Shown here: piece by piece, positions 685 through 52,724 of the stretch | How positions within the stretch are numbered: the stretch's first letter is position 1 | Layout: each line of letters starts with the position of its first letter | Assembly (NCBI RefSeq): GCF_020618775.1 | Contig: NZ_JAESVB010000020.1 | Location: 1-57,184 of the forward strand | Reading direction: 5' to 3' | DNA from: Acidisoma silvae | GTDB taxonomy: Bacteria > Pseudomonadota > Alphaproteobacteria > Acetobacterales > Acetobacteraceae | DNA: 57,184 nucleotides | The notes under the pieces: generated by a model | Told to the model about the DNA's origin: nothing | What the model saw: only the letters and a program-made list of their open reading frames with translations | Database searches by the model: none | Made by a program: the position numbers and the translations under genes

Positions 685-718
685 TGGGTGTGCATCCGAA
701 AATGGAGGGAAGAATGTT

Positions 719-733
719 GTTCCTTATTTGTTC
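719..733 (-). promoter_or_regulatory. LexA box (GTTC-N7-GTTC)
   Basis: The plus strand reads GTTCCTTATTTGTTC, an exact match to the alphaproteobacterial LexA operator GTTC-N7-GTTC. It sits just upstream of the imuA frame, where SOS control is expected for imuA-imuB-dnaE2 operons. Confidence 0.85.
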
Positions 734-1077
734 TCACGCAGGGTAAGAGTCAAGCCAATGGTTCCGGCTAGGAGCCGGCGCGACATCACGTTGTCCGGTG
801 ACAGCTTAGCGCCGGGGATTGCGGCGCATCCGGGACCCCACGCCTTCCTGCTAGCCGTTATCGAAGAATGAATGTTGACAGATCATAAAGTGAACCCATT
901 CAGGCGATGCGGGGTCACAACCGAGTGATTATCGGCGGAGAAGCGGCAATACGATTTGTGCGTTCTGGGTGTAGCCCCACCTGAACGGCGTCGGCTTGGG
1001 TACCCGAGCCACCGCTCAAGATCGTGACGCTCCACCTGAAGAGTGCCCATCTCCTGGCAGAATAGAGAGTACGAACA
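734..1077. other. Intergenic region between imuA and the sugar-oxidation operon
   Basis: Divergent upstream region for imuA (minus) and the SDR gene (plus). Apart from the LexA box next to it I see no gene, repeat or clear promoter. The minus-strand open frames that extend over it are shadows of the SDR gene. Confidence 0.4.
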
Positions 1078-1956: not shown

Positions 1957-1972
1957 GCGAGGAGTGGGGACC

Positions 1973-3541
1973 GTGGCAAACAACGAATTCGATGTCATCA
2001 TCATCGGCAGCGGTCCTGGCGGCGGCGCAGTGGCGCACCGGCTGGCTGCGACTGGCAAGAAAATCCTCATCCTTGAGCGCGGGGACTATCTGCCCCGTTC
2101 GCCTGCAAATTGGGATTCCAAGACGGTCTTCGTCGATGGCGCCTATCAGGTTGATGAGACGTGGTATGGCGGCAAAGGTGAGAGCTTCAAACCGGCCCTC
2201 CACCGGTATGTTGGTGGAAACTCAAAAGTGTATGGCGCGGCCCTGTTTCGTTTGCGGGAGCGGGATTTCGAGGAGGTCCAGCACAAGGACGGGATCTCTC
2301 CGGCCTGGCCGGTCAAATACGATGTTTTTGAACCCTATTACACCGAAGCGGAGCGGCTGTTCCATGTGCATGGTCAGCGCGGGGAAGATCCGCTGGAACC
2401 CGCAGCCAGTGGCCCTTATCCCTATCCGCCAGTCTCGCACGAGCCAAAAATCCAGGAACTGAACGACAGTTTGCGCGGGGAAGGGTTTAATCCCTATCAC
2501 TTGCCCCTTGGCATTCTGCTGGATGAAAAGAATGGCAAGCCAACACCGACAAGCATTTGTATCCGCTGCGATGCTTTTGACGGCTTTCCTTGCCTGCTAA
2601 ATGGCAAGGCGGATGCGCAGGTGGTGCTGATCGACCCCACGCTGAAACTATTTCCGAATGTCACCTTGATGACCGGCGCTTACGTGACGCGGCTGGAAAC
2701 TGATGTCTCGGGCCGTAGCGTTAAGCGTGTTATCGTGGAGCGCGAAGGTCGCCGCGAAGAATATTCGGCGGATATCGTGGTCGCCGCCTGCGGCGCCTTA
2801 TCATCCGCTCTGCTCCTGCTGCGTTCGGCCAGTGAGCATCATCCACGCGGATTGGCAAATGGCTCCGATCAGGTTGGGCGCAACTATATCCGGCACAATA
2901 TGAGCGTTCTGATGGCCCTTCTCAAAGAGCCGAACCATACCGTGTTCCAGAAAACGCTGGCCCTCAGTGACTACTATTTCAAATCAGACGATTGGAACTA
3001 TCCTCTCGGCTTGATCCAAATGTGTGCGACCTCTCATGCTGAGCAAATCAAAGGTGAATCGCTGCCGAGTTGGCTAGAATGGCTGCCCGACATGCCGTTT
3101 GACAAAATCGCCGAGCATTCGATGGACTTTTGGCTCCAAAGTGAGGATCTGCCGCGGCCGGAAAACCGGATCTACTACGATGGCGATCGTGTCATTCTCG
3201 ATGTCACCCAAAACAACATGGAAGCGCATCACCGCCTCAAGAAAAAGCTTGAGCACCTAATGAGCGCGGTCGGCGCACATCCGGTGCTGTTGGAGCGCAG
3301 CCTCTACCTAGGCAAGGATATTCCTATTAGCGGCACGGCGCATCAGGCAGGCACCGCGCGCTTTGGCATTGATCCCACGTCCTCTGTCTTAGATCTCGAT
3401 TGCAAAGCGCACGAACTTGACAATCTCTATGTTGCGGACGCGTCGTTCTTTCCCTCGATCGGGGCCGTCAACCCGACGCTCACAATCATCGCGAATGCCC
3501 TGCGAGTGGCCGACAAGATCAAAGAACGGCTGGTCGCATGA
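1973..3541 (+). CDS. GMC-family FAD-dependent oxidoreductase
   Basis: 522 residues from GTG at 1973, chosen over GTG at 1964 because a GCGAGGAG ribosome site ends 8 bases before it. The FAD-binding dinucleotide motif GSGPGGG is at 12-18 with ERGD at 35-38. The C-terminal GMC signature ADASFFPS...NP lies at about 488-501, and the partner active-site His is likely in TAHQAGTARFG. GMC enzymes oxidise alcohols or sugar carbons and pass electrons to oxygen, quinone or a partner. The start is 16 bases after the SDR stop, and the stop overlaps the next gene (ATGA). The nearest relatives are probably gluconate/glucose dehydrogenase-like or choline-dehydrogenase-like enzymes; the true substrate cannot be read from the sequence. 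There is no signal peptide, so it is cytoplasmic or anchored through the DoxX protein. Confidence 0.88.
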   Translation: MANNEFDVIIIGSGPGGGAVAHRLAATGKKILILERGDYLPRSPANWDSKTVFVDGAYQVDETWYGGKGESFKPALHRYVGGNSKVYGAALFRLRERDFEEVQHKDGISPAWPVKYDVFEPYYTEAERLFHVHGQRGEDPLEPAASGPYPYPPVSHEPKIQELNDSLRGEGFNPYHLPLGILLDEKNGKPTPTSICIRCDAFDGFPCLLNGKADAQVVLIDPTLKLFPNVTLMTGAYVTRLETDVSGRSVKRVIVEREGRREEYSADIVVAACGALSSALLLLRSASEHHPRGLANGSDQVGRNYIRHNMSVLMALLKEPNHTVFQKTLALSDYYFKSDDWNYPLGLIQMCATSHAEQIKGESLPSWLEWLPDMPFDKIAEHSMDFWLQSEDLPRPENRIYYDGDRVILDVTQNNMEAHHRLKKKLEHLMSAVGAHPVLLERSLYLGKDIPISGTAHQAGTARFGIDPTSSVLDLDCKAHELDNLYVADASFFPSIGAVNPTLTIIANALRVADKIKERLVA

Positions 3542-3999
3542 CCCTGCAGGTGGACGCCACCATCATTGTTCGCTGTCTGCTGGTGCTACTCTTTTTCCCA
3601 TTCAGCGCCTTGGACAAGACGCTGAATTTCAGGGGCGCCGTGGGTCAGGCGCAACAGCTATTCAAACAACGCCCCGTCGCGGTCGCCATGATTGCAATAG
3701 GCCTCATGGTGGAGATTTTTATGCCGCTTGGCATTGTAAGCGGTATCGCAGACCGCTTGGCTGCTTTCATTCTAGCGGGTTACTGCGCGGTGACCGCGCT
3801 GCTCTTTAAGCCGTTCTGGGAGCAAGGTGATTTCTGGGCGCACGGTCAGAGTAAGGGGCGAGACTTATTCTGGGATTTCCTCAAGAATTTTGCGCTCGCG
3901 GGTGGCTTCCTCCTTATCACGATCAATACGGACGGATCGGGTCTGCATGCGCTCTTGTCTGACCCGCTCCAGTCCTCTCATCCATATGCCACTCACTAG
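3538..3999 (+). CDS. DoxX-family membrane protein
   Basis: 153 residues with about four membrane segments (around 8-25, 48-70, 72-92 and 115-135). It has the DoxX pattern: a first helix ending FFPFSALDK, then KQRPVAVAMIAIGLMVEI and the ALLFKPFWEQGDFW loop. It overlaps the GMC gene by ATGA, so translation is coupled. DoxX proteins accompany oxidoreductases and may connect them to the quinone pool. Here that would make it the membrane partner of the GMC enzyme, which is inferred from context only. Confidence 0.82.
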   Translation: MTLQVDATIIVRCLLVLLFFPFSALDKTLNFRGAVGQAQQLFKQRPVAVAMIAIGLMVEIFMPLGIVSGIADRLAAFILAGYCAVTALLFKPFWEQGDFWAHGQSKGRDLFWDFLKNFALAGGFLLITINTDGSGLHALLSDPLQSSHPYATH

Positions 4000-4010
4000 G
4001 GATGTCCATC

Positions 4011-4451
4011 ATGCCCGAAGCTCCGAGCATTCCTTATTGGCACCTTTGGTGCGATGAAACTGGCGTCAGCCACCAGACGCAATGCAACTTGACGAACTGG
4101 GAATTCAAGGGTGTTGGCAAAGCCGCTCCCCAGTGGAACAACCAGATGGCGCGTGCCGACTCGACCGTCGTTTTTACCGTTCAACCCGTCGGTTGGGTCG
4201 GCGAATGGCATGAAAATCCCGCGCCACAGTGGATTGTTGTTTTGTCTGGACGCTGGTGGATTGAAGCGATGGACGGAACGCGCATCGAACAAGGGCCGGG
4301 CGAGTTCTCGCTCGGCGAGGATCAGGGCTGTACAGCGACGGCTGATGGAAGAAAGGGCCATCGGTCAGGCACGATTGGCGACGAGCCGGCAGTTTTGATG
4401 ACGGTGCAGCTTCACGTTCCGCCTGTCCATAAACCGGGCCATTTTACATGA
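4011..4451 (+). CDS. Cupin-fold protein
   Basis: 146 residues from ATG at 4011, which has TAGGGA 8 bases upstream; the ATG at 4002 has none. The middle contains a single cupin barrel pattern: WHENPAPQWIVVLSGRWWIEA, then IEQGPGEFSLGED, then a late His in KGHRSGTIGDEP. Few metal-ligand His residues are evident, so it may be a sugar-binding or isomerase-type cupin rather than a dioxygenase. It lies between doxX and the lactonase gene and overlaps the lactonase by ATGA, which points to the same pathway. Specific reaction unknown. Confidence 0.72.
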   Translation: MPEAPSIPYWHLWCDETGVSHQTQCNLTNWEFKGVGKAAPQWNNQMARADSTVVFTVQPVGWVGEWHENPAPQWIVVLSGRWWIEAMDGTRIEQGPGEFSLGEDQGCTATADGRKGHRSGTIGDEPAVLMTVQLHVPPVHKPGHFT

Positions 4452-5350
4452 ATGGTGATTTTGAGATCTTCGACGAACGCTTCCATGCGCTCGCTTTACC
4501 CAACGCGCCCCTGGAGAAACTATCCGAGGGTTTTCGTTGGCTTGAAGGTCCGGTCTGGTTTGCAGACCTTAATTGTCTCTTGGTCAGCGATCTTCCCAAT
4601 GATCGAATTATGCGCTGGACAGAGTCTGGTGGCGTTTCTGTGTTTCGTCAGCCGAGCGGCTTCGCCAATGGTCATACCCGCGATCGCCAAGGCCGGCTGA
4701 TTGGCTGTTCGCACCAGCACCGCTGCATCATCCGGACCGAGTTAGATGGGACGATCACAGTATTAGCCGACCGCTATGAGGGCAAACGGCTGAATGCGCC
4801 GAATGACATTGTCTGCAAGTCGGATGGTACAATCTGGTTCAGTGATCCCCACTATGGCATCAACACCGACTACGAGGGCGGAAAACAGACGCCAGAGTTA
4901 CCACCCAGCCTATACTGCCTAGATCCATCTGACGGCGCGTTGACCATTGTGGCGGATGATTTCGCGGGGCCGAACGGATTGTGCTTTTCACCCGATGAAA
5001 GCTTGCTTTATGTCGCAGAAAGTGGACCGCAATTCACGCCAAATCCAATTCAGCATATCCGTGTTTTCGATGTTGCCGGAAATCAGCTGACCAATGGGCG
5101 CGTCTTCTATAAGGCGTCTCCCGGTTTTTCTGACGGCTTCCGTTGTGACGAAGATGGCCGCATTTGGAGCAGTGCTGCCGACGGCGTGCACTGCATTGCG
5201 CCGGAGGGCGTTCTGCTGGGGAAAATTAAGGTGCCAGCCGTCGTTTCCAACCTTACTTTTGGTGGTCGAAACCGTAGCCGCTTATTCATCTGCGCATCGC
5301 AAACCCTCCATGCGATTTACCTTAACGTTCGTGGTGCCGCTCGGCTATGA
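4448..5350 (+). CDS. SMP-30/gluconolactonase/LRE family lactonase
   Basis: 300 residues forming a six-bladed propeller of the SMP-30 type. Diagnostic pieces are FRWLEGPVWF near the N terminus (first metal-ligand Glu), LNAPNDIVCKSDGTIWFSDPHYG in the middle (Asn and Asp ligands), FAGPNGLCFSPDESLLYVAES, and SDGFRCDEDGRIW (Asp). These enzymes hydrolyse sugar lactones using one divalent metal. Together with the SDR and GMC oxidoreductase upstream this completes an oxidation-plus-lactone-opening sequence. It overlaps the cupin (ATGA) and the next gene (ATGA). Cytoplasmic: no signal peptide. Confidence 0.88.
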   Translation: MNGDFEIFDERFHALALPNAPLEKLSEGFRWLEGPVWFADLNCLLVSDLPNDRIMRWTESGGVSVFRQPSGFANGHTRDRQGRLIGCSHQHRCIIRTELDGTITVLADRYEGKRLNAPNDIVCKSDGTIWFSDPHYGINTDYEGGKQTPELPPSLYCLDPSDGALTIVADDFAGPNGLCFSPDESLLYVAESGPQFTPNPIQHIRVFDVAGNQLTNGRVFYKASPGFSDGFRCDEDGRIWSSAADGVHCIAPEGVLLGKIKVPAVVSNLTFGGRNRSRLFICASQTLHAIYLNVRGAARL

Positions 5351-6174
5351 AGTCTATCGATAGGCTGGCTTACGTGAGCGTCACGGTATCCGATCTTGGG
5401 CGGATCGGAGCCTTTTATCGGGATGCGCTTGGTTTCCGACGAGGTGAAGTCTCAAACCATGTCATCGACGGATACCCAGGGCGTCGATTGATGATGCATT
5501 TGGGAGAGCAGTCGGTTGAACTGTTTCAACCAACCATGCCGGGCAATCCTTATCCCGAAGCACGCACTGCGCACGACCCTTGGTTCCAGCATATTGCCGT
5601 CGTCGTTTCCGATATCGACCGCGCCCATGCAGCGCTTAACGCATATGATATTGAACCCATCACGCGAGGTGGCCCGCAGTTTCTGCCACCGTCATCGGGT
5701 AGCGTACAGGCATTTAAATTTCGTGACCCAGACGGTCACCCATTGGAACTGCTGCAATTTCCACCTCGCTCCGGCGATCCAAAATGGCAAGAGAGATCAT
5801 CTGACAGCCCTTTTTTGGGGTATGATCACACCGCCATTGTGGTGCAGGATCTTGACCGCAGCATCGCATATTACCAATCGTTAGGCCTTCGCGTGACATC
5901 TCGGGGCGTTAACCATGGCAGCGCGCAAGCAAGACTCGATAGTGTCGATGACCCGACTGTCGATGTGGTGGCGCTTACGGCCGCACAATCGCTGACACCG
6001 CATGTGGAGCTGCTGTGCTATCGTGGACCGGCTCTATGCGAACAGCCCGATGCCATTTCGGCGTCTGACATTGCATCCTGCCGATCGATGTTCGCATGGT
6101 CAAAATTGATAGAGCCGGCTTTGACTACACTCACTGAGCAAGACCCAGATCGGCATGCCTGGGGATCTGAGTAA
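5347..6174 (+). CDS. VOC-superfamily protein with two glyoxalase-like modules
   Basis: 275 residues with two vicinal-oxygen-chelate modules. The first, about 5-140, begins RLAYVSVTVSDLGRIGAFYRDALGF and ends FRDPDGHPLELLQFP; the second begins near 158 with GYDHTAIVVQDLDRSIAYYQ. Metal ligands fit a His near FQHIAVVV and the terminal Glu of HPLELL in the first module; the second is shorter and diverges after HVELLCY. Members include glyoxalases, ring-cleavage dioxygenases and epimerases. It is the last gene of the operon, coupled to the lactonase by ATGA. Hairpins follow its stop. Confidence 0.82.
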   Translation: MKSIDRLAYVSVTVSDLGRIGAFYRDALGFRRGEVSNHVIDGYPGRRLMMHLGEQSVELFQPTMPGNPYPEARTAHDPWFQHIAVVVSDIDRAHAALNAYDIEPITRGGPQFLPPSSGSVQAFKFRDPDGHPLELLQFPPRSGDPKWQERSSDSPFLGYDHTAIVVQDLDRSIAYYQSLGLRVTSRGVNHGSAQARLDSVDDPTVDVVALTAAQSLTPHVELLCYRGPALCEQPDAISASDIASCRSMFAWSKLIEPALTTLTEQDPDRHAWGSE

Positions 6175-6201
6175 GGTAATAGTTAGCCCGGTGATGTCTA
6201 A

Positions 6202-6220
6202 GATGCGCTATTGGCGCATC
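6202..6220. terminator. Hairpin after the VOC gene
   Basis: A perfect 7-bp stem, GATGCGC/GCGCATC, with a TATTG loop lies 28 bases after the VOC stop, between convergent genes. There is no T-tract, so termination is plausible but not proven. Confidence 0.45.
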
Positions 6221-6260
6221 GGATTCACGGAATGCCAAAGGCAACAGTGGGGGGAAAGCC

Positions 6261-6302
6261 GAATGTCGGCTCAGGAGCTGCAGACTCCACAAGCCGACAT
6301 TC
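6261..6302. repeat. Inverted repeat of the AATGTC-GCT type between convergent genes
   Basis: Perfect 11-bp arms, GAATGTCGGCT at 6261-6271 and AGCCGACATTC at 6292-6302, with a 20-base loop. It lies between the VOC gene and formate dehydrogenase, which converge. The AATGTC-GCT core resembles the dispersed intergenic repeat seen near 14.6, 27.1, 34.4 and 50.6 kb, so it may be a repeat remnant as well as a terminator. Confidence 0.55.
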
Positions 6303-6359
6303 AGGACCATCTCGTATAGCGAGACGGCTGACGTTCAAATGTATGCCGTTGGTAGCGGG

Positions 6360-7520
6360 TTAGGTTAGCTTATAGGAAGAAGCACCCGTCCCGGCCAAGC
6401 TGCCTGCTTTGACAATCAGATATTCCTCGCGGATCGGTGTGCCATCGAAGTAGCTCTCGAGAATCTCGAGCGTGCCAGCCGCATAGCGTGTCTGGGCGGA
6501 GAGTGACGTTCCTGAGATATGCGGTGTCATACCGTTGAAGGGCATGGTTCGCCATGGATGATCTGCCGGAGCAGGTTGGGGGAACCACACGTCACCAGCA
6601 TAGCCCGCTAGCTGACCAGACTGCAGTGCACGCACGATCGCGTCACGGTCCACGAGTTTCGCGCGCGCGGTGTTGATGAGGTAAGTGCCACGCCTCATGA
6701 GGCCAAGCATACGATCATCGATAAAATGTTCGGTCGACGGATAGAGCGGCATCTGAAGGTTGACGATGTCGACGGCTTTGATCAGAGACTCGGCGTTCTC
6801 ATGATAGGTTAGGCCGAGTTCTTGCTCTACATCAGGCTTCAGCCGATACGGATCGGTGTAGTGCAGTTTCACACCAAAGGGCTTCAAGCGGCGTAACACC
6901 GCAAGGCCGATGCGCCCCGCGGCGATCGTGCCAAAATGCATGCCCTCGAGGTCATAGCTGCGGGAAACGCAATCTGCGATGTCCCAGCCGCCACGGACGG
7001 CGATCTCATGCGAGGGGAGATAGTTGCGGACCAGAGAGAGGACCATCATGACAACGTGCTCAGCCACGCTGATACTGTTGGAACCAGTGACTTCTGCGAC
7101 GGTGACACCGGCCTTGGCGGCAGCCGCGAGATCCACGTGGTCGGAACCAATACCGGCGGTCAGAGCGAGCTTCAGCTTTTTGGCCTTGGCGATACGCTCG
7201 GGCGTCAGGTAAGCGGGCCAGAAAGGCTGTGAGATGACAATCTCCGCATCCGGCAGATGCTTCTCGAACTCGGAGTTTGGACCGTCCTTGTCGCTGGTCA
7301 CGATCAGTTCATGACCCAGCTTCTCCAGATAGGAACGCAAGCCAAGCTCTCCGGAGACACACCCGATTAGTTCTCCCGGCAAAAAGCCAAGAGGGCCTTT
7401 GGGTGTGGGCGCGGTCTGACCGTTGGCGTAGCCTTCGATGACAGGAATGCTGTCGCGCGCATAGTGAGGCGGATAGCCCTTCTCGGGATCGGGATAAAGA
7501 ACGCAGAGAATCTTGGCCAT
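6360..7520 (-). CDS. fdh: NAD-dependent formate dehydrogenase
   Basis: 386 residues beginning MAKILCVLYPDP, matching the conserved start of the Pseudomonas sp. 101-type enzyme; ATG at 7520 has GGAG upstream. It oxidises formate to CO2 with NAD+, without metal. Features by position: N148 in GSNSISVAEH, the Rossmann motif AAGRIG at 200-205, D223 in LHYTDPYRL (NAD preference), catalytic R286 in NTARAK, D310 in AGDVWFPQPAP, H334 in GMTPHISG, and the C-terminal EEYLIV...GTGA. All catalytic residues are present, offset by about two from the reference enzyme. It lies downstream of a LysR gene on the same strand. Formate could come from the formamidase operon at 27-33 kb or from C1 metabolism; that link is inference. 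Confidence 0.95.
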   Translation of the reverse strand: MAKILCVLYPDPEKGYPPHYARDSIPVIEGYANGQTAPTPKGPLGFLPGELIGCVSGELGLRSYLEKLGHELIVTSDKDGPNSEFEKHLPDAEIVISQPFWPAYLTPERIAKAKKLKLALTAGIGSDHVDLAAAAKAGVTVAEVTGSNSISVAEHVVMMVLSLVRNYLPSHEIAVRGGWDIADCVSRSYDLEGMHFGTIAAGRIGLAVLRRLKPFGVKLHYTDPYRLKPDVEQELGLTYHENAESLIKAVDIVNLQMPLYPSTEHFIDDRMLGLMRRGTYLINTARAKLVDRDAIVRALQSGQLAGYAGDVWFPQPAPADHPWRTMPFNGMTPHISGTSLSAQTRYAAGTLEILESYFDGTPIREEYLIVKAGSLAGTGASSYKLT

Positions 7521-27282: not shown

Positions 27283-28230
27283 TTATACAGCGTTCGGCAA
27301 ATGCGCCTTGGCCAGCATCATGTGAACGCCCTTATTGCCATCAACCAGTTGCGTCACCCGCAGATCGCCAGCGAGCGAGCAGAGCATATAGGCCTGGCTC
27401 GCGGTTAGCCGGGTGCGACGAGAGAGATGATCGATCATTTCTGCGACCGCCTGAGCAGCCGCATCATCGAGATCCTCATGCAGCCCGATTGCGATCAGAT
27501 GCGTCTCACTTTCCGCGAAGGGCCGCGCAACCGGATAATCCTTCCGCACTGTCAGCCGGAAGGTGCCGGTAAGCCCGGTTTCCAGCGCCGTGACGCAGAC
27601 CTCGCCATCCCCCTGCACGCCATGCCCGTCTCCAGCCATGAAGAGCGCGCCTTCATTGAAGACCGGCAGATACAGCATGGTGCCTGGCCGCAATTCCTTA
27701 TTGTCCATATTGCCGCCGAAGGCGCGCGGCACATCGGAGATGCACCGCCCCCAGCGCGGCGGCGGCGCCACCGCGAGGATGCCGAAGAAGGGGTCAAGCG
27801 GCAGGGTGCCGCCCCAGGGCCAGGTCATCGTGCCGGCCTGCACGTCGATCGCCGGATGCACCGTCTCTGCGCTGTCGAAGACCGCGGGCAGCGTGCCCGC
27901 CAGCGGCTCGATGGAAACGAAGCCCCAATTTATCGTCGGCCGCGCCGAGAGGATCTCCACCTGCAGCGTGTCGCCGATTTCGGCTCCGCGCACGAAGACT
28001 GGGCCGGTGATAAAATGCGAACCGAAACCGCCGGGATGCGCGGCCAGCGCCGCACGGTAGAGCGGCGGAACGCGCGCGCACTCTGGCGGCAGGCGATCTT
28101 CGCGCCCGGCCGGCACGGCTTCGAGTTTTACCGTATCACCCGAGTTCACCGTGAGCACCGGCGGGATGCGCGCATCGAGATAGCCGAAGACCATGCTCTC
28201 CGGCCGCGCCGGGATGAGATGATGCGCCAT
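27283..28230 (-). CDS. Acetamidase/formamidase family protein
   Basis: 315 residues from ATG at 28230, overlapping the aminotransferase stop (TGATG). Family marks of FmdA/AmdA: SGDTVKLE near 30, HFITGPVFVRGAEIGDTLQVEI, PRAFGGNMDNKELRPGTMLY, FNEGALFMAGDGHGVQGDGEV and the late VDGNKGVHMML. It hydrolyses formamide or a small amide to acid plus ammonia in the cytoplasm. It is the last gene of the TetR-controlled operon; formamide could be produced by the upstream monooxygenase/transaminase chemistry. The formate would then suit the NAD formate dehydrogenase at 6.4 kb. Confidence 0.9.
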   Translation of the reverse strand: MAHHLIPARPESMVFGYLDARIPPVLTVNSGDTVKLEAVPAGREDRLPPECARVPPLYRAALAAHPGGFGSHFITGPVFVRGAEIGDTLQVEILSARPTINWGFVSIEPLAGTLPAVFDSAETVHPAIDVQAGTMTWPWGGTLPLDPFFGILAVAPPPRWGRCISDVPRAFGGNMDNKELRPGTMLYLPVFNEGALFMAGDGHGVQGDGEVCVTALETGLTGTFRLTVRKDYPVARPFAESETHLIAIGLHEDLDDAAAQAVAEMIDHLSRRTRLTASQAYMLCSLAGDLRVTQLVDGNKGVHMMLAKAHLPNAV

Positions 28231-29189
28231 CAGCCGTGCTGCGGCCGCGCCGTGTAATCCACGGTCGAGCCGTGCCAGCCTTCTCGGTGCTTCTGCCAAT
28301 AGAGCGCCTTGAGCGCGAGGCTGACGGGGCCGGGCCGATCATTCGCCATGATATTTGTGCCGATCGTGGCATTGCCCACGCGGGCGCAAGGCATGATGCC
28401 GCCGGCGGTGGTGGTGGTGAAGACCTCATCTGCCGCCATCAGATCCTCCAGGCGCATCGCCGCGACTCGGCCTTCCAGGCCAAGTTCCGCGCACAGCTCC
28501 AGCGCCGAGCGGCGGGTGATGCCTTCCAGCGCGCCACGATCCGGCGTGATGACTTCGCGACCTTTGACGATGAAGACATTGAAGCCCGCGCCTTCGGTAG
28601 CATAGCCTTCCTGATCCAGCAGGATCGCCGTGTCATATCCATGATCATGGGCTTCGTGCAGCGCGCTCATGAAATCGCGCCAAAGGTAGTTCTTGAAGGT
28701 AGGATCGAGCGAGGCTGGGGAGATACGCGGCATCGAGGCGAGCCAGAGATGCGCGCCGCGCGCCTGCACCTCGGGGGTAATGACATCGATCCACGGGAGG
28801 GCATAGGCGATGAAGGTGTTGAGGCAATCGGCCGGGCGTCGGGAGCCCGCAACCTGTGGCCGACCGCGCGTGCAGACCATGGCCACGTACGAATCTCGCA
28901 AGTTGCTCAGCGCCACGCAGCCGTGGAGGATGGCGCGGATCTCCGTCCGGTCCACCGGCGGCGACAAGCGGAACCCCTGCAACGACCGCTCGAAGCGATC
29001 GAGATGATCCTCAAGCCGGAAGAAGCGGCCATCGGTGACATGCACCACATCATAAGTCGCGTCTGCGCGGGTGAAGCCCCAATCGGTGACGGGAATGCGC
29101 GCCTCCGCGATGGGCACATAGCGGCCTTCGATCCAGGCGGCACCCTTGCTGAAATCCGGCTCCGGGGCGGTGGTCGGGCAATCGGTCAT
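28230..29189 (-). CDS. Class-IV PLP aminotransferase, (R)-amine-transaminase-like
   Basis: 319 residues from ATG at 29189 (GAGG 7 bases upstream). PLP lysine K166 in LDPTFKNYLWRD, E199 in TEGAGFNVF and the phosphate loop TTTAGGIMPCARV. The N-terminal FTRADATYDVVHVTDGRFF, the CTRGRPQVAGSRR loop and TPDRGALEGITR fit the (R)-selective amine:pyruvate transaminase subgroup better than ordinary branched-chain or D-alanine transaminases. It transfers an amino group from an amine or amino acid to a keto acid. Between the ABC importer and formamidase genes, 21 bases below the former and overlapping the latter. Subgroup assignment is from remembered motifs. Confidence 0.85.
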   Translation of the reverse strand: MTDCPTTAPEPDFSKGAAWIEGRYVPIAEARIPVTDWGFTRADATYDVVHVTDGRFFRLEDHLDRFERSLQGFRLSPPVDRTEIRAILHGCVALSNLRDSYVAMVCTRGRPQVAGSRRPADCLNTFIAYALPWIDVITPEVQARGAHLWLASMPRISPASLDPTFKNYLWRDFMSALHEAHDHGYDTAILLDQEGYATEGAGFNVFIVKGREVITPDRGALEGITRRSALELCAELGLEGRVAAMRLEDLMAADEVFTTTTAGGIMPCARVGNATIGTNIMANDRPGPVSLALKALYWQKHREGWHGSTVDYTARPQHG

Positions 29190-29210
29190 CCTAAGCCTCA
29201 CGCGGGTTCA

Positions 29211-30116
29211 TCACTCAACGGTATCGAGAACATTCGCCATCAGCGGCATGGCGGGATAGGGCTCTTCCTCAGCCGCCGAGGAGGTCGGGGCGTGGATGAG
29301 AGACTCAAGCCGCGCCTTGGTTGCGCGGAAGGCCGCGGACTGCACCTGCGCAGGGCTGCGCGGCCGGGCTAGCGGCACTTCGATCATCTCCTGCACGCGG
29401 CCGGGATGCGGCGACAGCACGAGGATCCGGTCCGCGAGATAGATCGCCTCATCCAGGTCATGCGTGATGAAGATCACCGTGACATCGATCTTCTTCCAGA
29501 TATCCAGGAGATAGGCCTGCATGCGCGCGCGCGTCTGCGCATCGAGGGCGGCGAAAGGCTCGTCCATCAGCAGGATGCGCGGCTGGTTGATAAGGGCGCG
29601 GGCAATCGCCACGCGCTGCTTCATGCCGCCCGAGAGCTGATGCGGATAGGCCTCCGCGAAAGCGCTGAGGCCGATGAGATCGAGCCATTCCCCGGCCTGC
29701 CGCGCAGCTTCCGAACGGCCGGTGCCGGTCATCTCCAGGCCGAACATCACATTGCGTTTCACGGTGAGCCAGGGGAAGAGCGTATAGCCCTGGAACACCA
29801 TGCCGCGCTCCCGCCCCGGCCCGGTGATCGGCACGCCATCCAGCAGCGCAACGCCGCCGCTCGCCGCTTCCAGCCCAGCCAGAATGCGGATGAGCGTGGA
29901 TTTCCCGCAGCCCGAGGGCCCGACGATGCAGAGAAATTCCCGCCGGTGGGTTTGGAAGCGGATGCCGTCCAGCGCCTTCACGCCGCGCCCCCGGCCGGTG
30001 AACTGCTTGTCCAGACCCTCCACGCGAAGGATCACGTCGCGCGCCTTCATCCGCTCCAGCCGCGCAACCACATCGGGCGGCGGATCAAGCGCGGAGGCGG
30101 TCTCTTGATCGGTCAT
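29211..30116 (-). CDS. ABC transporter ATP-binding protein (SsuB/TauB type)
   Basis: 301 residues. Walker A GPSGCGKST at 66-74, Q-loop FQGYTLFPW, signature LSGGMKQRVAIARAL, Walker B ILLMDEPFAALD and H-loop FITHDLDEAIYLAD. The order and sequence match ATPases of the nitrate/sulfonate/taurine import family. The C-terminal 45 residues are variable. It pairs with the permease (19-base gap) and the binding protein upstream. Confidence 0.93.
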   Translation of the reverse strand: MTDQETASALDPPPDVVARLERMKARDVILRVEGLDKQFTGRGRGVKALDGIRFQTHRREFLCIVGPSGCGKSTLIRILAGLEAASGGVALLDGVPITGPGRERGMVFQGYTLFPWLTVKRNVMFGLEMTGTGRSEAARQAGEWLDLIGLSAFAEAYPHQLSGGMKQRVAIARALINQPRILLMDEPFAALDAQTRARMQAYLLDIWKKIDVTVIFITHDLDEAIYLADRILVLSPHPGRVQEMIEVPLARPRSPAQVQSAAFRATKARLESLIHAPTSSAAEEEPYPAMPLMANVLDTVE

Positions 30117-30135
30117 GATGCAGTGTCCATTTCAT

Positions 30136-31161
30136 TCAGAGGGCGGCGGAGCGATCCCAGGGGAAGAGCCGGCGCCCGAGACGGCCGAGCAGCAGATCCG
30201 TGCCGAGGCCGACAATGCCGATTACGGCGATGCCCGCGAAGACGGCAGCGAAATGCTGGTGGCGCGCCTGCTGGGTAATGAAGAGGGAAATGCCCGAGGT
30301 TGCGCCTACGAGTTCGGCGACGATCAGATAGGTCCAGGCCCAGCCTAGCAGCACGCGCTGATCGCGGTAGAGATCGGGCAGAATGGCCGGCACGATCACC
30401 TTCGACAGAAGGCGGCCATTGCGGCAGCCCAGGGTGAGGGCCGCCTCCACCAGACCGAACTCCACCTTGCGGGTGGTATTGGCAACGATCAGGATCTGTT
30501 GAAACAGCGTGCCGATAACGATGATGGCGATCTTGGGCCCGTCATAAATGCCGAGCACGGCAACGGCGAGCGCGCCGAAGGCCGGGGCTGGCAGATAGCG
30601 GAAGAATTCGACGATCGGCTCCACCAGATGTGAGACGGCGGTATTGGCCCCGGCGAGAATGCCGAGTGGCACGCCGATCAGCGAGGAGATGAGAAATCCC
30701 CAGAAGATCACCTGAATGCTCTTCCAGAGGCTGGCAAGCATCCAGCCGCCTTCGGCATTGCCCGCCGAGCTGGTGAAGGCCGCGATAAAGGCCGAAGCCA
30801 CTGCGCCCGGCGATGGCAGATAGAGCGGATTGGCCGGCACGCCCTGCGGCGGTGCCTGCTTCGCCTGCAGGGCGGAGGTGACTTCGGAGGCGAAGGTCGC
30901 GCGATCCACCGACATGCCGACCTGGAAGTAATCAACATCACCGGGATTGGTGACGAGCATATTCGGATGCCAGATGAAGGGCACGTAGCTCACGATCGCC
31001 CATACCAGCAGTGGCAGCAGGAAGGAGCAGAGCCCCAACATGCGCCGCGTGCCGAGCGGCAGAGGGCCACGAATGCGCAGCCAGTTCGGCCGGGCCATGC
31101 GCGGCCTCGCTGCGCCGCCGCTCAAGCCCCAGCCGAAGGCGGCGCTGCGCACGCTCGGCAT
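30136..31161 (-). CDS. ABC transporter permease (SsuC/TauC type)
   Basis: 341 residues with about six to seven membrane helices. A long periplasmic insert (about 70-130, GDVDYFQVGMSVDRATFASE) follows the first helix; the EAA-like coupling loop is EAALTLGCRNGRLLSKVIVPAILPDLY. ATG at 31161 overlaps the binding-protein stop as TAATG. The long insert is unusual for TauC-like permeases and may contact the binding protein. Confidence 0.9.
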   Translation of the reverse strand: MPSVRSAAFGWGLSGGAARPRMARPNWLRIRGPLPLGTRRMLGLCSFLLPLLVWAIVSYVPFIWHPNMLVTNPGDVDYFQVGMSVDRATFASEVTSALQAKQAPPQGVPANPLYLPSPGAVASAFIAAFTSSAGNAEGGWMLASLWKSIQVIFWGFLISSLIGVPLGILAGANTAVSHLVEPIVEFFRYLPAPAFGALAVAVLGIYDGPKIAIIVIGTLFQQILIVANTTRKVEFGLVEAALTLGCRNGRLLSKVIVPAILPDLYRDQRVLLGWAWTYLIVAELVGATSGISLFITQQARHQHFAAVFAGIAVIGIVGLGTDLLLGRLGRRLFPWDRSAAL

Positions 31162-32141
31162 TACTGGCCCGCCATCAGAGCGTTATCGATATAATCTGCC
31201 GGATCCTGGGAATTCTTGTAGACCCCCGTACGCAGATTGAAGGCATTGGAATTCGCATCCGAGCCGTAGAGCGAAGTCAGCGCATCGGATTTCACATAGG
31301 CCGCCGCCGATTCCGCGCGCGAGAGGATATGCGTGCCTTTGACATAGCGTTTGTAGGTTGCCGCATCCACGCCATCGCGCGCCGCCATGATGGCGAGCGC
31401 ATCATCGGCGGTTTTGGGATCGTTGATGTAGTCGACGATGCGGTACCACACCTTCATCACCTTCTCCCAATCCGCCCGCCGCTTCGCGAAGCTTTCCGGG
31501 GAGACCGCGAGACCATCGAAAATCAGCCCCGGGGCCTGGGCCGAGGTGAAGATGGGCCGCGAGCCCGGCACCTGCATCTCGGCCTGGGTTGAGGTGGGCG
31601 GCCAGACACCGATGGCGGCGACCGCACCGGAGGCCAGGATCTGCGGCGTATCGGCGGTTTTGGCGTTGACGAGGGTTACATCGGTGAGCGCCATGCCGGC
31701 CTGCTTCAGCCCATATTCGAGCAGAAGCTGTTCGGTAACGCCCACTTCCAGCGCCACCTTCTTGCCCTTCAGATCCTTGAGGCTGTGGATGCCGGGCTTG
31801 GCCAGGATCATGTCGTTCCCGCTCGAATAATCGGTGAGGAAGATGATCTTGTTCTTGGTACCGCTCGCGCCCATCACCAGGGAGTCATTGTTGCCGACGA
31901 AATCGCCGTCCAGTTTGCCAGCCGCGAAGGCGTCGAGAGAGGCCGAATAATCGAACCACTCCATATCCACATCCACGCCGGCTTCCTTGAACCAGCCTTT
32001 GTCGATGGCGATCTGCCAGCCGGTCCAGCCCGGCCAGTCACTGAAGCCGATGCGCAGCGGTTGTGCGGCCTCAGAGGGCAGCGCCTGAAGGGTGAGGCCG
32101 ATCACGGCCGCGGCAGCAAGCAGGAATTGGCGCAGTTTCAA
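31161..32141 (-). CDS. ABC transporter substrate-binding protein (nitrate/sulfonate/taurine-like)
   Basis: 326 residues from TTG at 32141, chosen because it follows GGAG by 7 bases and begins a clean signal peptide (MKLRQFLLAAAAVIGLT...LPSEAA). The mature protein starts QPLRIGFSDWPGWTGWQIA and has the NMT1/SsuA-like fold (GWFKEAGVDVDMEWFDY, LDGDFVGNND, LKGKKVALEVG). Ligand is unknown; the enzymes in the operon suggest an amine, amide or heterocycle. Periplasmic or membrane-tethered. Confidence 0.9.
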   Translation of the reverse strand: MKLRQFLLAAAAVIGLTLQALPSEAAQPLRIGFSDWPGWTGWQIAIDKGWFKEAGVDVDMEWFDYSASLDAFAAGKLDGDFVGNNDSLVMGASGTKNKIIFLTDYSSGNDMILAKPGIHSLKDLKGKKVALEVGVTEQLLLEYGLKQAGMALTDVTLVNAKTADTPQILASGAVAAIGVWPPTSTQAEMQVPGSRPIFTSAQAPGLIFDGLAVSPESFAKRRADWEKVMKVWYRIVDYINDPKTADDALAIMAARDGVDAATYKRYVKGTHILSRAESAAAYVKSDALTSLYGSDANSNAFNLRTGVYKNSQDPADYIDNALMAGQ

Positions 32142-32191
32142 GGAAGGTCTCCGGGGCAAGGGTGAGAAAGCAGGGAGGCCAGGCGTAAGAC

Positions 32192-33502
32192 TTAGAATTC
32201 GAGCAGATTGTCTCGCAGGCATTCATGGGTGTAGCGGGTGCGCACCAGCCCGCGCTTCTGCAAAGCAGGAACCAGGCCGTCTGCGATTTCCGCGAGAAAG
32301 CGGCGCGAAACGCGCAGCACGGGCGTAGTAATCAGAAACCCATCGCCGCCGACTTCGGCCATCACTTCGCCCATACGGTCGGCGACCTGATCCGGCGTGC
32401 CGACGAGTTCGACCGAGGAGACCATCCCGCCGCCACCATCGGAAACAAGCTGCCGCAGCGTCTTGCCGCTGCCCCATTGTTGGAACTTATCGAGCGAGCC
32501 CTGCTCGCCATTGGTTTCGAGCCTGTGCGGCAAAGGCTCGTCCAGCGGGAATTGGGAGAAGTCGATCTCGGTGATGGCAGAGAGGGAAATCAGATTCTCG
32601 AGAATGAAGTTGGGATTGGCGATCAGGCGCGCGAGCTTGTCTTTCGCCTCCTGTTCGGTTTCCCCGAGAACCGGCGTCACGGTGAAGAGGATCTTGATAT
32701 CGTCCGGGTTGCGGTCGAGCTTTTCGGCGCGCGCGCGGATATCGGCGCGGAAGGCCTTCATGCTCTCCACGCCGGTGGCCACCGAAATGATGGAATCTGC
32801 GTGGCGGGCGGCGAAATCGCGCCCCCGGGGGGATGCACCGGCCTGCACGTAAAGCGGGCGGCGCTGCGGTGATGGCACCGTATTGAGAGGGCCACGCACC
32901 GAAAAAAAGCGGCCCTTATGATCGATGGTATGTACCTTCGCGGGGTCGGTGTAGAGACCGGCTTCCCGATCCAGCACTACGGCATCTTCGTCCCAACTCT
33001 CGAAGAGCTTGCCCATAACCTCCATATATTCATCGGCCATCTCATAGCGAAGTTCGCGCGGCGGCAATTTCTCAAGGCCGAAGTTTTGTGCTGCGAGATC
33101 TTCAGCGCTGGTGACGATGTTCCAGCCGAAACGCCCCTTGGTCAGGCTGTCTATCGTGGATGCGAGGCGCGCCATGAGGAAGGGCGGATAGGCAAGGGTA
33201 GACATGGTGGCGACCACGCCGAGGCGTTGCGTCACCATCCCCATGGCCACGGCCAGCGGAGCGGGATCATGCTTTGGCGCCATGATGGCGGTGCGCAACC
33301 CGGCATCGGGCGTGCCGCCATAGGTCTGCGCCACCATGAGCTTGTCTTCCATCATGATGTAATCGAAGCAGGCGCGCTCAAGCGTACGGGCCATATCCAT
33401 ATAGAACTGCCCATCCCAGAACTGGCCGCCCTGGGCAAAAGGCTCGCGCCATTCATCGGGCGTGAAATTCATGAACCATGCGAGATGGAATTTGTTGACC
33501 AT
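32192..33502 (-). CDS. LLM-class flavin-dependent monooxygenase (NtaA/SnaA/DszA group)
   Basis: 436 residues from ATG at 33502 (CCGGAG upstream). A luciferase-like TIM barrel of the NtaA/DszA type: FYMDMARTLERACFDYIMMED, RLGVVATMSTLAYPPFLMARLAST, KGRFGWNIVTS, RYEMADEYMEVM, PLYVQAGASPRGRDFAARHAD. It uses reduced FMN from a separate reductase and O2 to cleave C-N or C-S bonds. First gene of the operon, directly behind the palindromic operator. No flavin reductase gene is seen in the operon, so reductant would come from elsewhere. Substrate unknown. Confidence 0.92.
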   Translation of the reverse strand: MVNKFHLAWFMNFTPDEWREPFAQGGQFWDGQFYMDMARTLERACFDYIMMEDKLMVAQTYGGTPDAGLRTAIMAPKHDPAPLAVAMGMVTQRLGVVATMSTLAYPPFLMARLASTIDSLTKGRFGWNIVTSAEDLAAQNFGLEKLPPRELRYEMADEYMEVMGKLFESWDEDAVVLDREAGLYTDPAKVHTIDHKGRFFSVRGPLNTVPSPQRRPLYVQAGASPRGRDFAARHADSIISVATGVESMKAFRADIRARAEKLDRNPDDIKILFTVTPVLGETEQEAKDKLARLIANPNFILENLISLSAITEIDFSQFPLDEPLPHRLETNGEQGSLDKFQQWGSGKTLRQLVSDGGGGMVSSVELVGTPDQVADRMGEVMAEVGGDGFLITTPVLRVSRRFLAEIADGLVPALQKRGLVRTRYTHECLRDNLLEF

Positions 33503-33537
33503 GGGAACTCCGGCTCGGCGGGGTCTATTAGGCATCC

Positions 33538-33567
33538 GCTCAATATGGTTATTGAGCACATGCTCAA
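33538..33567. promoter_or_regulatory. Double palindrome, candidate TetR operator
   Basis: Two overlapping perfect inverted repeats: GCTCAATA-TGGT-TATTGAGC at 33538-33557 and TTGAGCA-CA-TGCTCAA at 33552-33567. They lie 36 bases upstream of the monooxygenase start and about 100 upstream of tetR, where an autoregulatory TetR would bind. Confidence 0.75.
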
Positions 33568-33667
33568 GACGGGAGGCAAGCCTTTGTTCCCTTCAAGTGC
33601 ATTTTTTCCGTGGCTGGGCTATGGTCGCCTAACGGCGAGGCATATGCCGATAAAATGGGCTATTGTG

Positions 33668-34327
33668 ATGAGCGTAACTGAAAAAACCCTGGCCGAAGCG
33701 CCGGGCAAGCGAAAGGCAGCACAGTTCGAGAAGGCCGCGCAGAAGCGGCTTGATCCGCAAGCCCGCGCCGAGCTAATCCTGGAACAGGCCCTGCGGCTCT
33801 TCTCCGAGCGCCACTTCAGTGTTGTGACCGTGCGCGACATCGCGCAGGCCTGCGGCATTCAGAACGGGCTGATCTACTATTACTACGAGAACAAGGAGCA
33901 TCTGCTGCGCGCGGCGCTTACCCGCGCCATAGGGTTGACCAAACAAACTTATCTCGATCCGGCCAGCAGCAGCGGGCCGCCCTTGCAGCAGCTCACCGCC
34001 TGGCTGCGCGCCCAGGTGCCGCTTGCCGCCATGCTGAAGCAAATGAACAAGGTGATGGCGGACTACTCCGCCTCCATTCATCGCGACAAGATCACCGATG
34101 CGCTGATCAAAGACTTGTTCGACGGCGAGCAGACACTGCTCGAAACCTATCTCAGCCGCATCGCGGCGGCGGGAATCTCATCGCGCATCGATGTCACGAA
34201 ACTTGCGCGCCATATCAGCCTGCAGATCGACGGCATTTTCTTCTCTGCCAATAGCCGCGATGATGACCGGATTGCAGACGACATCGAATCTCTCTGTGAG
34301 ATGGTGGAGTCTCATCTCATGCGCTAA
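33668..34327 (+). CDS. TetR-family regulator of the monooxygenase/ABC operon
   Basis: 219 residues from ATG at 33668; ATG at 33644 is possible. The helix-turn-helix is around 40-75 (FSVVTVRDIAQACGIQNGLIYYYYENKEHLLRAAL), followed by a helical ligand domain. It is divergent from the monooxygenase gene across about 165 bp that hold the double palindrome. The basic, Lys-rich N-terminal 30 residues precede the DNA-binding domain. It most likely represses the catabolic operon until its substrate is present. Confidence 0.92.
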   Translation: MSVTEKTLAEAPGKRKAAQFEKAAQKRLDPQARAELILEQALRLFSERHFSVVTVRDIAQACGIQNGLIYYYYENKEHLLRAALTRAIGLTKQTYLDPASSSGPPLQQLTAWLRAQVPLAAMLKQMNKVMADYSASIHRDKITDALIKDLFDGEQTLLETYLSRIAAAGISSRIDVTKLARHISLQIDGIFFSANSRDDDRIADDIESLCEMVESHLMR

Positions 34328-50790: not shown

Positions 50791-51687
50791 TCAGCTCTTC
50801 CAAGGCGCCGGAAAAGCTTCTAGGTGCCGGATCAAAAGGCGAAGCCTACGGTCCAGCGTTTTATCGCCACGAACGACATACCCGACGGTGCGAGACAGAG
50901 GCGGTCTTAAGCGGCAAATCGCAGTTCCTGATACCGGCGTCGAGAGTGCGAGCTTAGGGACGATCGCGACACCGAGGCCGGCGCCCACCAAAACTTTAAT
51001 TGCTTCAAAACTCCCGAGTTCCATAATGGGTTTAGGTGAACCGCCGCCAGTATCAAACCAATTGTCCGCAATGGTTCTGGTGTCGCCAGCAGCGCGATAG
51101 GCGATGAATGGGAACTGCGCGAGTTGCTGCGGCGTAATGCCCTTGGGAAATAACCCATCGCTTTGTGGCAACAGTGCCATCAGCGGCTCTGAGAATAAGG
51201 GCTGATAACTCAAAGCGGCGACACGGTTCACCGGCAGGGTCATCAAACCGATGTCAAGTTCACCGGATTGCACCAGGGGCAAGAGATCGGCGGTATCGCC
51301 GATTGTGACCTTGAGCGTCAGGCGTGGCATGGCTTGCTTCACCGCTGCCAGAACCGTTGGCAAAAGGTGAATGCAACCCGTAGCCCCCGATCCGATCCGG
51401 ATTTGACCGGTCTCACCATGTTTACTCTCGGCAGTGACCGCAACGGCATCCTCCGCTGCGGCAACGGCCCGCTGTGCGGGTTCGACGAGTGCTTGCCCAG
51501 CCATAGTCAGAATCGACCGCCCGTTGGCCCGTTCGAACAGGCGCACGCTCAGGATACGCTCAAGCTCCCGCAACTGCTGGCTAACGGCGGGCTGCGTGAG
51601 TCCGAGTGATTTCGCCGCGATAGAAACGCTGCCCGTTTCCGCGACATGCAGGAAGGCTCGGAACTGTCTGACGGTCGGTAGGCGCAT
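50791..51687 (-). CDS. LysR-family regulator, divergent from the beta-lactamase
   Basis: 298 residues. Helix-turn-helix at about 8-62 (GSVSIAAKSLGLTQPAVSQQLRELERIL) and effector domain starting GQIRIGSGATGCIHLLPTVL. The C-terminal RTVGYVVRGDKTLDRRLRLL is of the CysB/CbbR-like group rather than AmpR-like. It is divergent from the class A beta-lactamase gene with 167 bp between starts, the geometry of LysR-controlled lactamases. Control of bla is therefore plausible, but an AmpR-type mechanism is not implied. Confidence 0.87.
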   Translation of the reverse strand: MRLPTVRQFRAFLHVAETGSVSIAAKSLGLTQPAVSQQLRELERILSVRLFERANGRSILTMAGQALVEPAQRAVAAAEDAVAVTAESKHGETGQIRIGSGATGCIHLLPTVLAAVKQAMPRLTLKVTIGDTADLLPLVQSGELDIGLMTLPVNRVAALSYQPLFSEPLMALLPQSDGLFPKGITPQQLAQFPFIAYRAAGDTRTIADNWFDTGGGSPKPIMELGSFEAIKVLVGAGLGVAIVPKLALSTPVSGTAICRLRPPLSRTVGYVVRGDKTLDRRLRLLIRHLEAFPAPWKS

Positions 51688-51716
51688 AAGGGAAAGTTAT
51701 TCTAATAGGGGCGATA

Positions 51717-51728
51717 GAAAATATTTTC
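51717..51728. promoter_or_regulatory. GAAAATATTTTC palindrome in the LysR-bla intergenic region
   Basis: A perfect 12-bp palindrome 30 bases upstream of the LysR start, in an A/T-rich stretch of the divergent promoter. Possible LysR site; the T-N11-A form is not exact. Confidence 0.4.
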
Positions 51729-51854
51729 TTCCCTCTCGCGAGGCAAGGCCGCTACATGCCTTCGCCAGGGTAACTAAATAACTCATTGTTTTGATTATCT
51801 ATAATGCCCTAGCCCCTTCATAGACGATTTCGGTCAAGAGGAGCCAGACAGCCA

Positions 51855-52724
51855 GTGACGACTTTGATAACGCGACGGACCGCGATGGCGGGCCTGTCCA
51901 TGGTCTCGGCTTTCGCCGCTATCCGCCCGGCCGCCGCACAAAACGAGACCTCCTTGGCTGTGATCGAAGGAAGGCATGGCGGACGCCTCGGTGTCTTCGC
52001 CCTGGATACTGGCTCGGGTCGGACATTGGCCCACCGTGCGGATGAAAGGTTTCTCATGTGCAGCACCTTCAAAGGGCTGCTGGCAGGCCTGGTCTTGGCC
52101 CGGGTGGATGCGGGCAAGGAAAACTTGTCGCGCATGATTCCCTATACCGACAGCGATCTGATTTTCACCTCCCCCGTCACCAAAGCCCATGTCAGCCAAG
52201 GTGCGATGGCCGTGGGAGACCTGACGCAGGCAATATTGGAATATAGCGACAATACTGCGGCCATCCTTCTCATGCGTAGCGCAGGCGGGCCTGCGGGCCT
52301 TACCGCCTTTGTGAGACGCCTGGGTGATACAGTGACGCGCTCCGACCGGTATGAACCCTTGTCCAATCACTATAGCGGTGAATTGGATACGACCTCTCCG
52401 CGAGCAATAGTCGCTTCGGCACAGAAGCTTCTGCTTAGCGATGTCTTGACGCCCGAATCAAAGTCGACGCTTGAGGTCGGGATGAAGGCCTGCAAGCCAG
52501 GGGTCAGGCGTATCCGAGCTTCTTTGCCTGCTGGTTGGACCATTGGCGACAGACCAGGCGAGAACGTGACTGAGGAATCAAACGACTACGCCATCGTGCG
52601 ACCGACGGGACGCGCACCCTTGCTGATCGCGGTTTATTATAACGCACCGAATACAAAGATTGCAGACCGTGAAGCTGTCATTCGTGAAGTGGGAGATGCT
52701 TTTGTGAAATGGGCACAAGGCTAG
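51855..52724 (+). CDS. Class A beta-lactamase, atypical
   Basis: 289 residues from GTG at 51855. A Tat-type signal peptide (RR at 7-8, RRTAMAG, cleavage near AAAQ-30) exports it folded. Active-site serine S70 and K73 in CSTFK, SDN at 131-133, E167 in DRYEPLSN with N171. The position of the KTG motif reads R233-P234-G235 (GDRPGEN): Lys is replaced by Arg as in carbenicillinases, and Thr by Pro, which is unusual. Hydrolytic spectrum may be narrow or shifted. Co-linear with the acyltransferase 16 bases downstream and divergent from the LysR gene. Confidence 0.9.
   Translation: MTTLITRRTAMAGLSMVSAFAAIRPAAAQNETSLAVIEGRHGGRLGVFALDTGSGRTLAHRADERFLMCSTFKGLLAGLVLARVDAGKENLSRMIPYTDSDLIFTSPVTKAHVSQGAMAVGDLTQAILEYSDNTAAILLMRSAGGPAGLTAFVRRLGDTVTRSDRYEPLSNHYSGELDTTSPRAIVASAQKLLLSDVLTPESKSTLEVGMKACKPGVRRIRASLPAGWTIGDRPGENVTEESNDYAIVRPTGRAPLLIAVYYNAPNTKIADREAVIREVGDAFVKWAQG

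Follow-up and report, generated by a model that had tools for sequence, protein, structure and literature searches.

We analysed a 57,184-nucleotide stretch of the Acidisoma silvae genome (contig NZ_JAESVB010000020.1; hereafter the window), in which six minus-strand genes and a divergent TetR gene occupy positions 27283 to 34327. We read these genes as a TetR-controlled operon for the import and oxidation of a guanidine-like nitrogen compound, meaning a guanidino compound, an amidine or a close relative, and put the probability of this reading at about 0.4. The assignment of the substrate to the guanidine-like class is moderately supported. Gene order, importer family, operator pattern and the recurrence of TetR with the monooxygenase and a guanidine-type importer all emerge from sequence comparison. 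The operon consists of this recurring core and two local additions, an aminotransferase and a hydrolase. A first-pass annotation had described the six genes, the divergent TetR gene and a double palindrome, with gene overlaps at TGATG (aminotransferase/hydrolase) and TAATG (binding protein/permease), and all of these are present in the sequence. Its proposal of a single TetR-linked operon for importing and oxidising a small nitrogen compound is also supported.

The monooxygenase gene (32192..33502, minus strand) encodes an NtaA/DmoA-family enzyme dependent on flavin mononucleotide (FMN). Its product scored 438.9 bits against the NtaA/DmoA model TIGR03860 (cut-off 279.7), its best solved relative is DszA, and FMNH2-dependent oxygenation is predicted. 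One scan of species genomes gave 113 relatives, of which the best 80 represent 78 distinct loci, 50 of them close (at least 70% monooxygenase identity) and 28 more distant. An importer was counted in the close loci if its binding-protein gene was on the same strand and no more than 4.5 kb away. On this basis 44 of the 50 close loci had a guanidine-type binding protein, 38 of a second type described below and 6 of the window type. A TetR gene was found in the stretch of 45 of the 50, encoding proteins 32-48% identical to the window's regulator. Among the more distant loci, a second-type binding protein on either strand was found in 3 of 28 and a TetR gene in 1 of 28. A RutF-like reductase was encoded just downstream in 34/50 close loci and 40/78 overall. 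Guanidine carboxylase genes were present in five close loci, which are five of the six with a window-type importer. Three monooxygenase paralogues from the same genome (L125, L199 and L200) served as a control, and their neighbourhoods contained no match to either kind of guanidine-type binding protein. At E 1e-170 or better, the monooxygenase had a match in 5 of 385 genomes drawn from the class, its own included.

The first-pass annotation had suggested comparing monooxygenase neighbourhoods to see whether the genes belong together. TetR, the monooxygenase and a guanidine-type importer do recur together, but the last two genes are additions: a window-type aminotransferase or hydrolase was found beside none of the 50 close relatives, and the full six-gene set in none of the 78 loci, where genes in unannotated sequence were called from open reading frames (ORFs), third-position GC content and BLAST, so that small or broken genes can escape. 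The first-pass annotation knew of no described pathway with this gene set, and we met the set nowhere else in the loci covered. Other loci carry different downstream genes, namely amidase-type genes in L026 and L070 (by family scan) and L023 (by BLAST), a creatininase (314 bits, cut-off 235) with SDR enzymes in L083, and RutE in L007. These suggest amide hydrolysis and carbonyl handling, and the window's hydrolase and aminotransferase fit both roles. A partial parallel occurs in Ancylobacter defluvii (L074; monooxygenase 61% identical), where a 45% identical aminotransferase relative ends a separate nearby operon (270-7285) with its own monooxygenase (38%), ABC (ATP-binding cassette) importer and RutF-like reductase.

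Within the monooxygenase, Glu52 is present in 80 of 81 relatives of at least 57% identity and in 14/14 of 42-57% identity (copies of the window excluded). Five relatives with solved structures (DszA, DmoA, LadA, HcbA1 and YtnJ) carry Ala or Pro there instead, and we speculate that Glu52 could anchor a guanidinium or an amide. The A. silvae genome contains 25 places with similarity to the monooxygenase across 360 residues or more (for example C14:85163, C4:384497 and C10:4080), a large expansion of NtaA/DmoA-type enzymes. One of these paralogues (44% identical; L199 2931-5384, G000:C10) directly follows a ureohydrolase-family gene, again a guanidino-type pairing. On Rhodococcus fascians plasmid pFiD188 (L164 7995-9299), a 52% identical relative follows a LOG-type gene (TIGR00730) and the region of the cytokinin gene fas4.

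The ABC importer is encoded by genes for a binding protein (31161..32222), a permease (30136..31161; PF00528, 75.8 bits) and an ATPase (29211..30116; PF00005, 111 bits), all on the minus strand. The first ATG of the binding-protein ORF overlaps the monooxygenase gene, and a TTG at 32141, which precedes the signal peptide, is the likelier true start. Orthologous binding proteins, mostly 54-68% identical to the window's, lie in guanidine carboxylase clusters, several of them behind guanidine riboswitches. The permease shares 66-79% identity with its relatives in L018, L021, L024, L027, L032, L037 and L123. Importer orthologues stand beside a carboxylase gene together with the monooxygenase in L018, L024, L027, L032 and L037, and without the monooxygenase in L123 (congener G004), L187 (G734) and L188 (G341). 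No carboxylase gene was seen close to the importer in L021, L189 or L124 (congener G001), though G001 carries one elsewhere. Where the stretch extends far enough, genes for allophanate hydrolase and for UAAP, whose two proteins (UAAP1/2) are the carboxyguanidine deiminase subunits, also adjoin the importer and carboxylase genes. Binding-protein orthologues of 46-59% identity were likewise found in carboxylase clusters on annotated plasmids of Burkholderia pyrrocinia, B. stagnalis, Paraburkholderia sprentiae and an Acinetobacter. Among 100 relatives searched, only congeners G001 and G004 had a strong match to the binding protein. In L189 (8834-13989), a window-type importer is followed by genes that by eye resemble a creatininase-family gene and a glutamine synthetase gene.

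Guanidine and urea carboxylases are told apart by an Asp at Kluyveromyces lactis position 1330, according to PMC11410670. Placing the L032 carboxylase on K. lactis structure 5i8i located the guanidine-type Asp in a motif that carries it in 12 of the 13 carboxylases examined, the thirteenth (L188) being cut off. Judged by this residue, the carboxylases of these clusters are of the guanidine rather than the urea type. Of nine scanned importer relatives without the monooxygenase, five have guanidine-I riboswitches (L123, L187, L158, L159 and L160), lying directly upstream of the binding-protein gene in L158-L160. L188 has a guanidine-II riboswitch only, and none was found in L124, L161 or L189.

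The window's binding protein scored 147.4 bits against TIGR03427, the putative urea/guanidine binding protein model (cut-off 333.9), 42.0 bits against the taurine model TIGR01729 (cut-off 304.25) and 142.8 bits against the SsuA-family model TIGR01728 (cut-off 163.5), below the threshold in each case. It shares 94 of the 101 columns that are invariant in eight relatives taken as guanidine-linked, L124 being counted among these solely because its genome has a carboxylase elsewhere. Taurine, sulfonates and other sulfur substrates were rejected, since the taurine and SsuA-family cut-offs were missed and the orthologues sit among guanidine genes. Of the "small nitrogen or sulfur compound" first suggested, the nitrogen half is supported and the sulfur half is not. 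The first-pass annotation had also named a ligand with a known pathway, such as taurine, as the outcome that would count against a new system; the binding protein is not of the taurine type, yet its family is linked to guanidine, and guanidine pathways have already been described.

Most close monooxygenase relatives adjoin a second, more distant importer, with binding proteins about 27-31% identical to the window's. One of these passes TIGR03427 (417.6 bits, cut-off 333.9) and one more is so annotated, the rest having been called by BLAST to a representative that passes the model. On Serratia and Pantoea plasmids, the second-type importer is found in operons of the order SBP (substrate-binding protein)-permease-ATPase-UAAP1-UAAP2-uca, with guanidine-I riboswitches in front and the guanidine-type residue in the carboxylase.

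The TetR-family regulator (33668..34327, plus strand; TetR_N 54.3 bits; alternative ATG start at 33644) is divergent from the operon. Between the two units lies the palindrome ATTGAGCACATGCTCAAG (33551..33568; ATTGAGC-N4-GCTCAAG, one mismatch), a probable TetR operator, and overlapping it a second palindrome read from the sequence, CTCAATATGGTTATTGAG (33539..33556; CTCAATA-N4-TATTGAG). We defined an 18-base pattern beginning ATTRA, in which two 7-base arms flank a 4-base gap and no more than one mismatch is allowed, and counted it at the TetR start in 47 TetR loci (46 of the 78 monooxygenase loci plus Salipiger L083). It was present in 19/47, compared with 14 of 940 random control stretches of the same length, a difference to be read knowing that the pattern was chosen after viewing the data in which it was then counted. 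The palindrome is absent from the Rhizobium-type loci and several Ancylobacter loci. In the 5.4 Mb A. silvae genome, TTGAGCNNNNGCTCAA occurs at a single place and the reversed control pattern at two, so the site is unique but the pattern alone is not rarer than chance.

The fold-IV pyridoxal phosphate-dependent aminotransferase (28230..29189, minus strand; PF01063, 146.8 bits) has (R)-selective transaminases as its best PDB chains (E about 1e-70). They are its nearest solved relatives, and it may act on (R)-amines without a carboxylate. A native catabolic setting had been called unusual for such an enzyme, a view that the comparison does not bear out: ABC importer genes lie close to its relative in five of ten annotated plasmid cases, and in Tistrella a 63-65% identical relative is followed by a dimethylformamidase-like protein. 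The last gene (27283..28230, minus strand) encodes a short-type amide hydrolase of the acetamidase/formamidase family (PF03069, 101.2 bits, gathering cut-off 27). It had been labelled a formamidase releasing formate and ammonia from formamide. This label is not supported, with a score of 49.8 bits against the formamidase FmdA equivalog NF045496 (cut-off 500) and the short acetamidase 2ii1 as the nearest solved structure. Formamide was rejected as a product for want of support from the formamidase score, while an amide hydrolase was kept in the model. In Agrobacterium pusense, a 56% identical hydrolase relative follows urtABCDE-type genes. Across the 385 genomes, the hydrolase had a match at E 1e-80 in 47 and the aminotransferase at E 1e-90 in 28, the A. 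silvae genome counted in both. No fixed pair of the two was found in the nine other genomes with both, where they lie on separate contigs or are separated by more than 290 kb, several of these genomes being drafts in which contig ends may interrupt.

From these parts a mechanism can be proposed; its chemistry throughout, what the window's binding protein binds and the order in which the last two enzymes act are our inference. TetR would repress from the palindrome between both units until its ligand arrives, and the guanidine-family importer would then take the compound up. Oxidative cleavage of a C-N bond is known for NtaA, which acts in this way on nitrilotriacetate and serves as the model for the next step. 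The monooxygenase, with reduced flavin from a reductase encoded elsewhere, would similarly cleave a C-N bond, with an aldehyde or oxo acid as one product and a small amide, amidine or guanidine as the other. The carbonyl or amine product would be converted by the aminotransferase and the amide opened by the hydrolase. MgdH (PMC12508155) is an earlier example of an oxygenase that works in a guanidine cluster. A more doubtful extension is that the FMN monooxygenase, TetR and either guanidine-type importer form a flavin-dependent guanidine branch, mostly in Alphaproteobacteria, in which substituted guanidines (or guanidine itself) are broken oxidatively. The window would then hold a derived version, with binding protein and product-handling enzymes retuned to a neighbouring compound.

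Several observations weigh against a guanidine-like substrate. No guanidine riboswitch was found in the window at the gathering threshold, nor in the 14 monooxygenase loci scanned (L018, L024, L027, L032, L037, L083, L007, L008, L012, L015, L026, L036, L046 and L021); the monooxygenase units may have swapped riboswitch control for TetR control. Six of the close loci have neither importer (L005, L014, L016, L030, L047 and L070), and since the loci are related, many of them from Ancylobacter, the counts cannot be treated as independent. No guanidine carboxylase match was found in the 38 loci with the second importer, the look-up covering the stretches and not the rest of the genomes. The A. silvae genome (G000, 98.9% complete) has no match over the cut-off to the urea/guanidine carboxylase model TIGR02712, which congeners G001 and G004 do have, and guanidine released in A. 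silvae would therefore need another route. The genome carries two urease alpha genes over the cut-off and five ureohydrolase-family matches, inspected by motif, onto which published guanidinase residues could not be reliably mapped. Finally, the window's binding protein has Ala190 and Pro208 in place of an Asn and a Gln that are kept in all 15 relatives compared, six of them monooxygenase-linked, so its ligand may differ. The neighbouring Trp207 aligns with a Trp of TauA that, allowing for an inferred offset, we take to be Trp176, a ligand-contacting residue in PMC6906117. The ligand is therefore probably near guanidine, perhaps not guanidine itself.

The monooxygenase could instead act as in the Rut pathway, opening a heterocyclic ring derived from a pyrimidine or purine by cleaving an amide oxygenolytically. 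The hydrolase would then remove a group of the carbamoyl or formyl type, and the resulting semialdehyde would go to the aminotransferase. The RutF-like reductases suggest this, although the two examined scored 237.1 and 252.7 bits (cut-off 254.75) and reductases of the RutF type work with many different oxygenases. A gene matching the RutE equivalog (303 bits, cut-off 152) follows the monooxygenase in L007, the only one of the loci inspected in which it does so. Purine-gene matches point the same way (OHCU decarboxylase-type in 8/78 loci and guanine deaminase-type in 7/78, mainly in Ancylobacter). The N-x-V of the RutA-type dioxygen motif, described in PMC8234197, is kept in 81/81 relatives of at least 57% identity, but it is common to DszA, DmoA and CmoJ and thus cannot separate substrates. 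Given also that the monooxygenase falls far short of the RutA model TIGR03612 (75.6 bits, cut-off 498.3), that a true RutA is encoded elsewhere in the genome and that the importers belong to guanidine-linked families, we consider a Rut-like role unlikely.

It is quite unlikely that the genes form an amide or amine catabolic operon with a borrowed guanidine-type importer and oxygenase. In such an operon the hydrolase would free an amine from an imported amide, the aminotransferase would deaminate an (R)-amine or D-amino acid, and the monooxygenase would serve a side branch. The two changed polar residues of the binding protein would suit this, as would the Tistrella arrangement and that in Sinorhizobium meliloti Rm41, where a 46% identical aminotransferase relative lies at most 6 kb from a D-amino acid dehydrogenase gene and an acetamidase/formamidase-family gene, the latter's product only 30% identical to the window's hydrolase. 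It leaves the recurring TetR-monooxygenase-importer core unaccounted for, and the aminotransferase and hydrolase genes are non-adjacent in the nine sampled genomes that have both. Least probable is that the monooxygenase attacks guanidine itself, as a third guanidine-degrading route besides carboxylase and guanidinase. The 38 close loci with a second-type guanidine binding protein would fit this, as would the restriction of carboxylase matches, among close loci, to five with the window-type importer, and an A. silvae genome that lacks the carboxylase and could use released urea through its two urease alpha genes. However, in those five loci the carboxylase next door would make a guanidine-attacking monooxygenase redundant, and we know of no precedent for a flavin monooxygenase attacking guanidine itself.

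Import and oxidation of a guanidine-like compound, our preferred reading, would set the operon beside several known systems. Guanidine carboxylase operons (importer, CgdA/B, guanidine carboxylase and AtzF, under guanidine-I/II riboswitches) use the same importer family, and their genes adjoin the monooxygenase and importer in five relatives. The window has no carboxylase, CgdA/B or riboswitch; it has TetR and a palindrome instead, and adds the monooxygenase, aminotransferase and hydrolase. In methylguanidine demethylation by MgdH/MgdL (PMC12508155), a substituted guanidine is broken down to guanidine by an oxygenase whose operon also includes a guanidine importer; the window's operon would work alike if our reading is right. 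MgdH is a 2-oxoglutarate/Fe(II) enzyme, whereas the window's is a luciferase-like FMN monooxygenase of an unrelated family. The Rut pyrimidine pathway likewise combines a luciferase-like monooxygenase, a TetR-type regulator and an amide hydrolase, and relatives of the operon have the RutF-like reductase and once RutE; the window differs in a monooxygenase that is not RutA by the curated model, an ABC importer rather than a permease, and an aminotransferase. Ssu/Tau sulfonate systems share the transporter superfamily and, in Ssu, an FMN monooxygenase, but differ in the binding protein and its genomic company. The fold-IV (R)-amine transaminases are the nearest solved relatives of the window's aminotransferase, whose genomic relatives occur in several catabolic settings. 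Elsewhere in the window (50791-52724), a LysR-type ORF is divergent to an ORF that by eye resembles a class A beta-lactamase.

The natural source of guanidine was named a major gap in a 2025 review (PMC12186494). Our searches of open-licence papers showed none that connects such a monooxygenase with guanidine import. The TetR-linked monooxygenase, which has a guanidine-type importer next to it in 44 of 50 close loci, offers a candidate enzyme, a regulator and a short substrate list. If the reading is true, it would be a second oxygenase chemistry in guanidine metabolism beside the 2-oxoglutarate enzyme MgdH. As the oxygenase has no described guanidine role, it may point to an unknown breakdown route for guanidine-like compounds.

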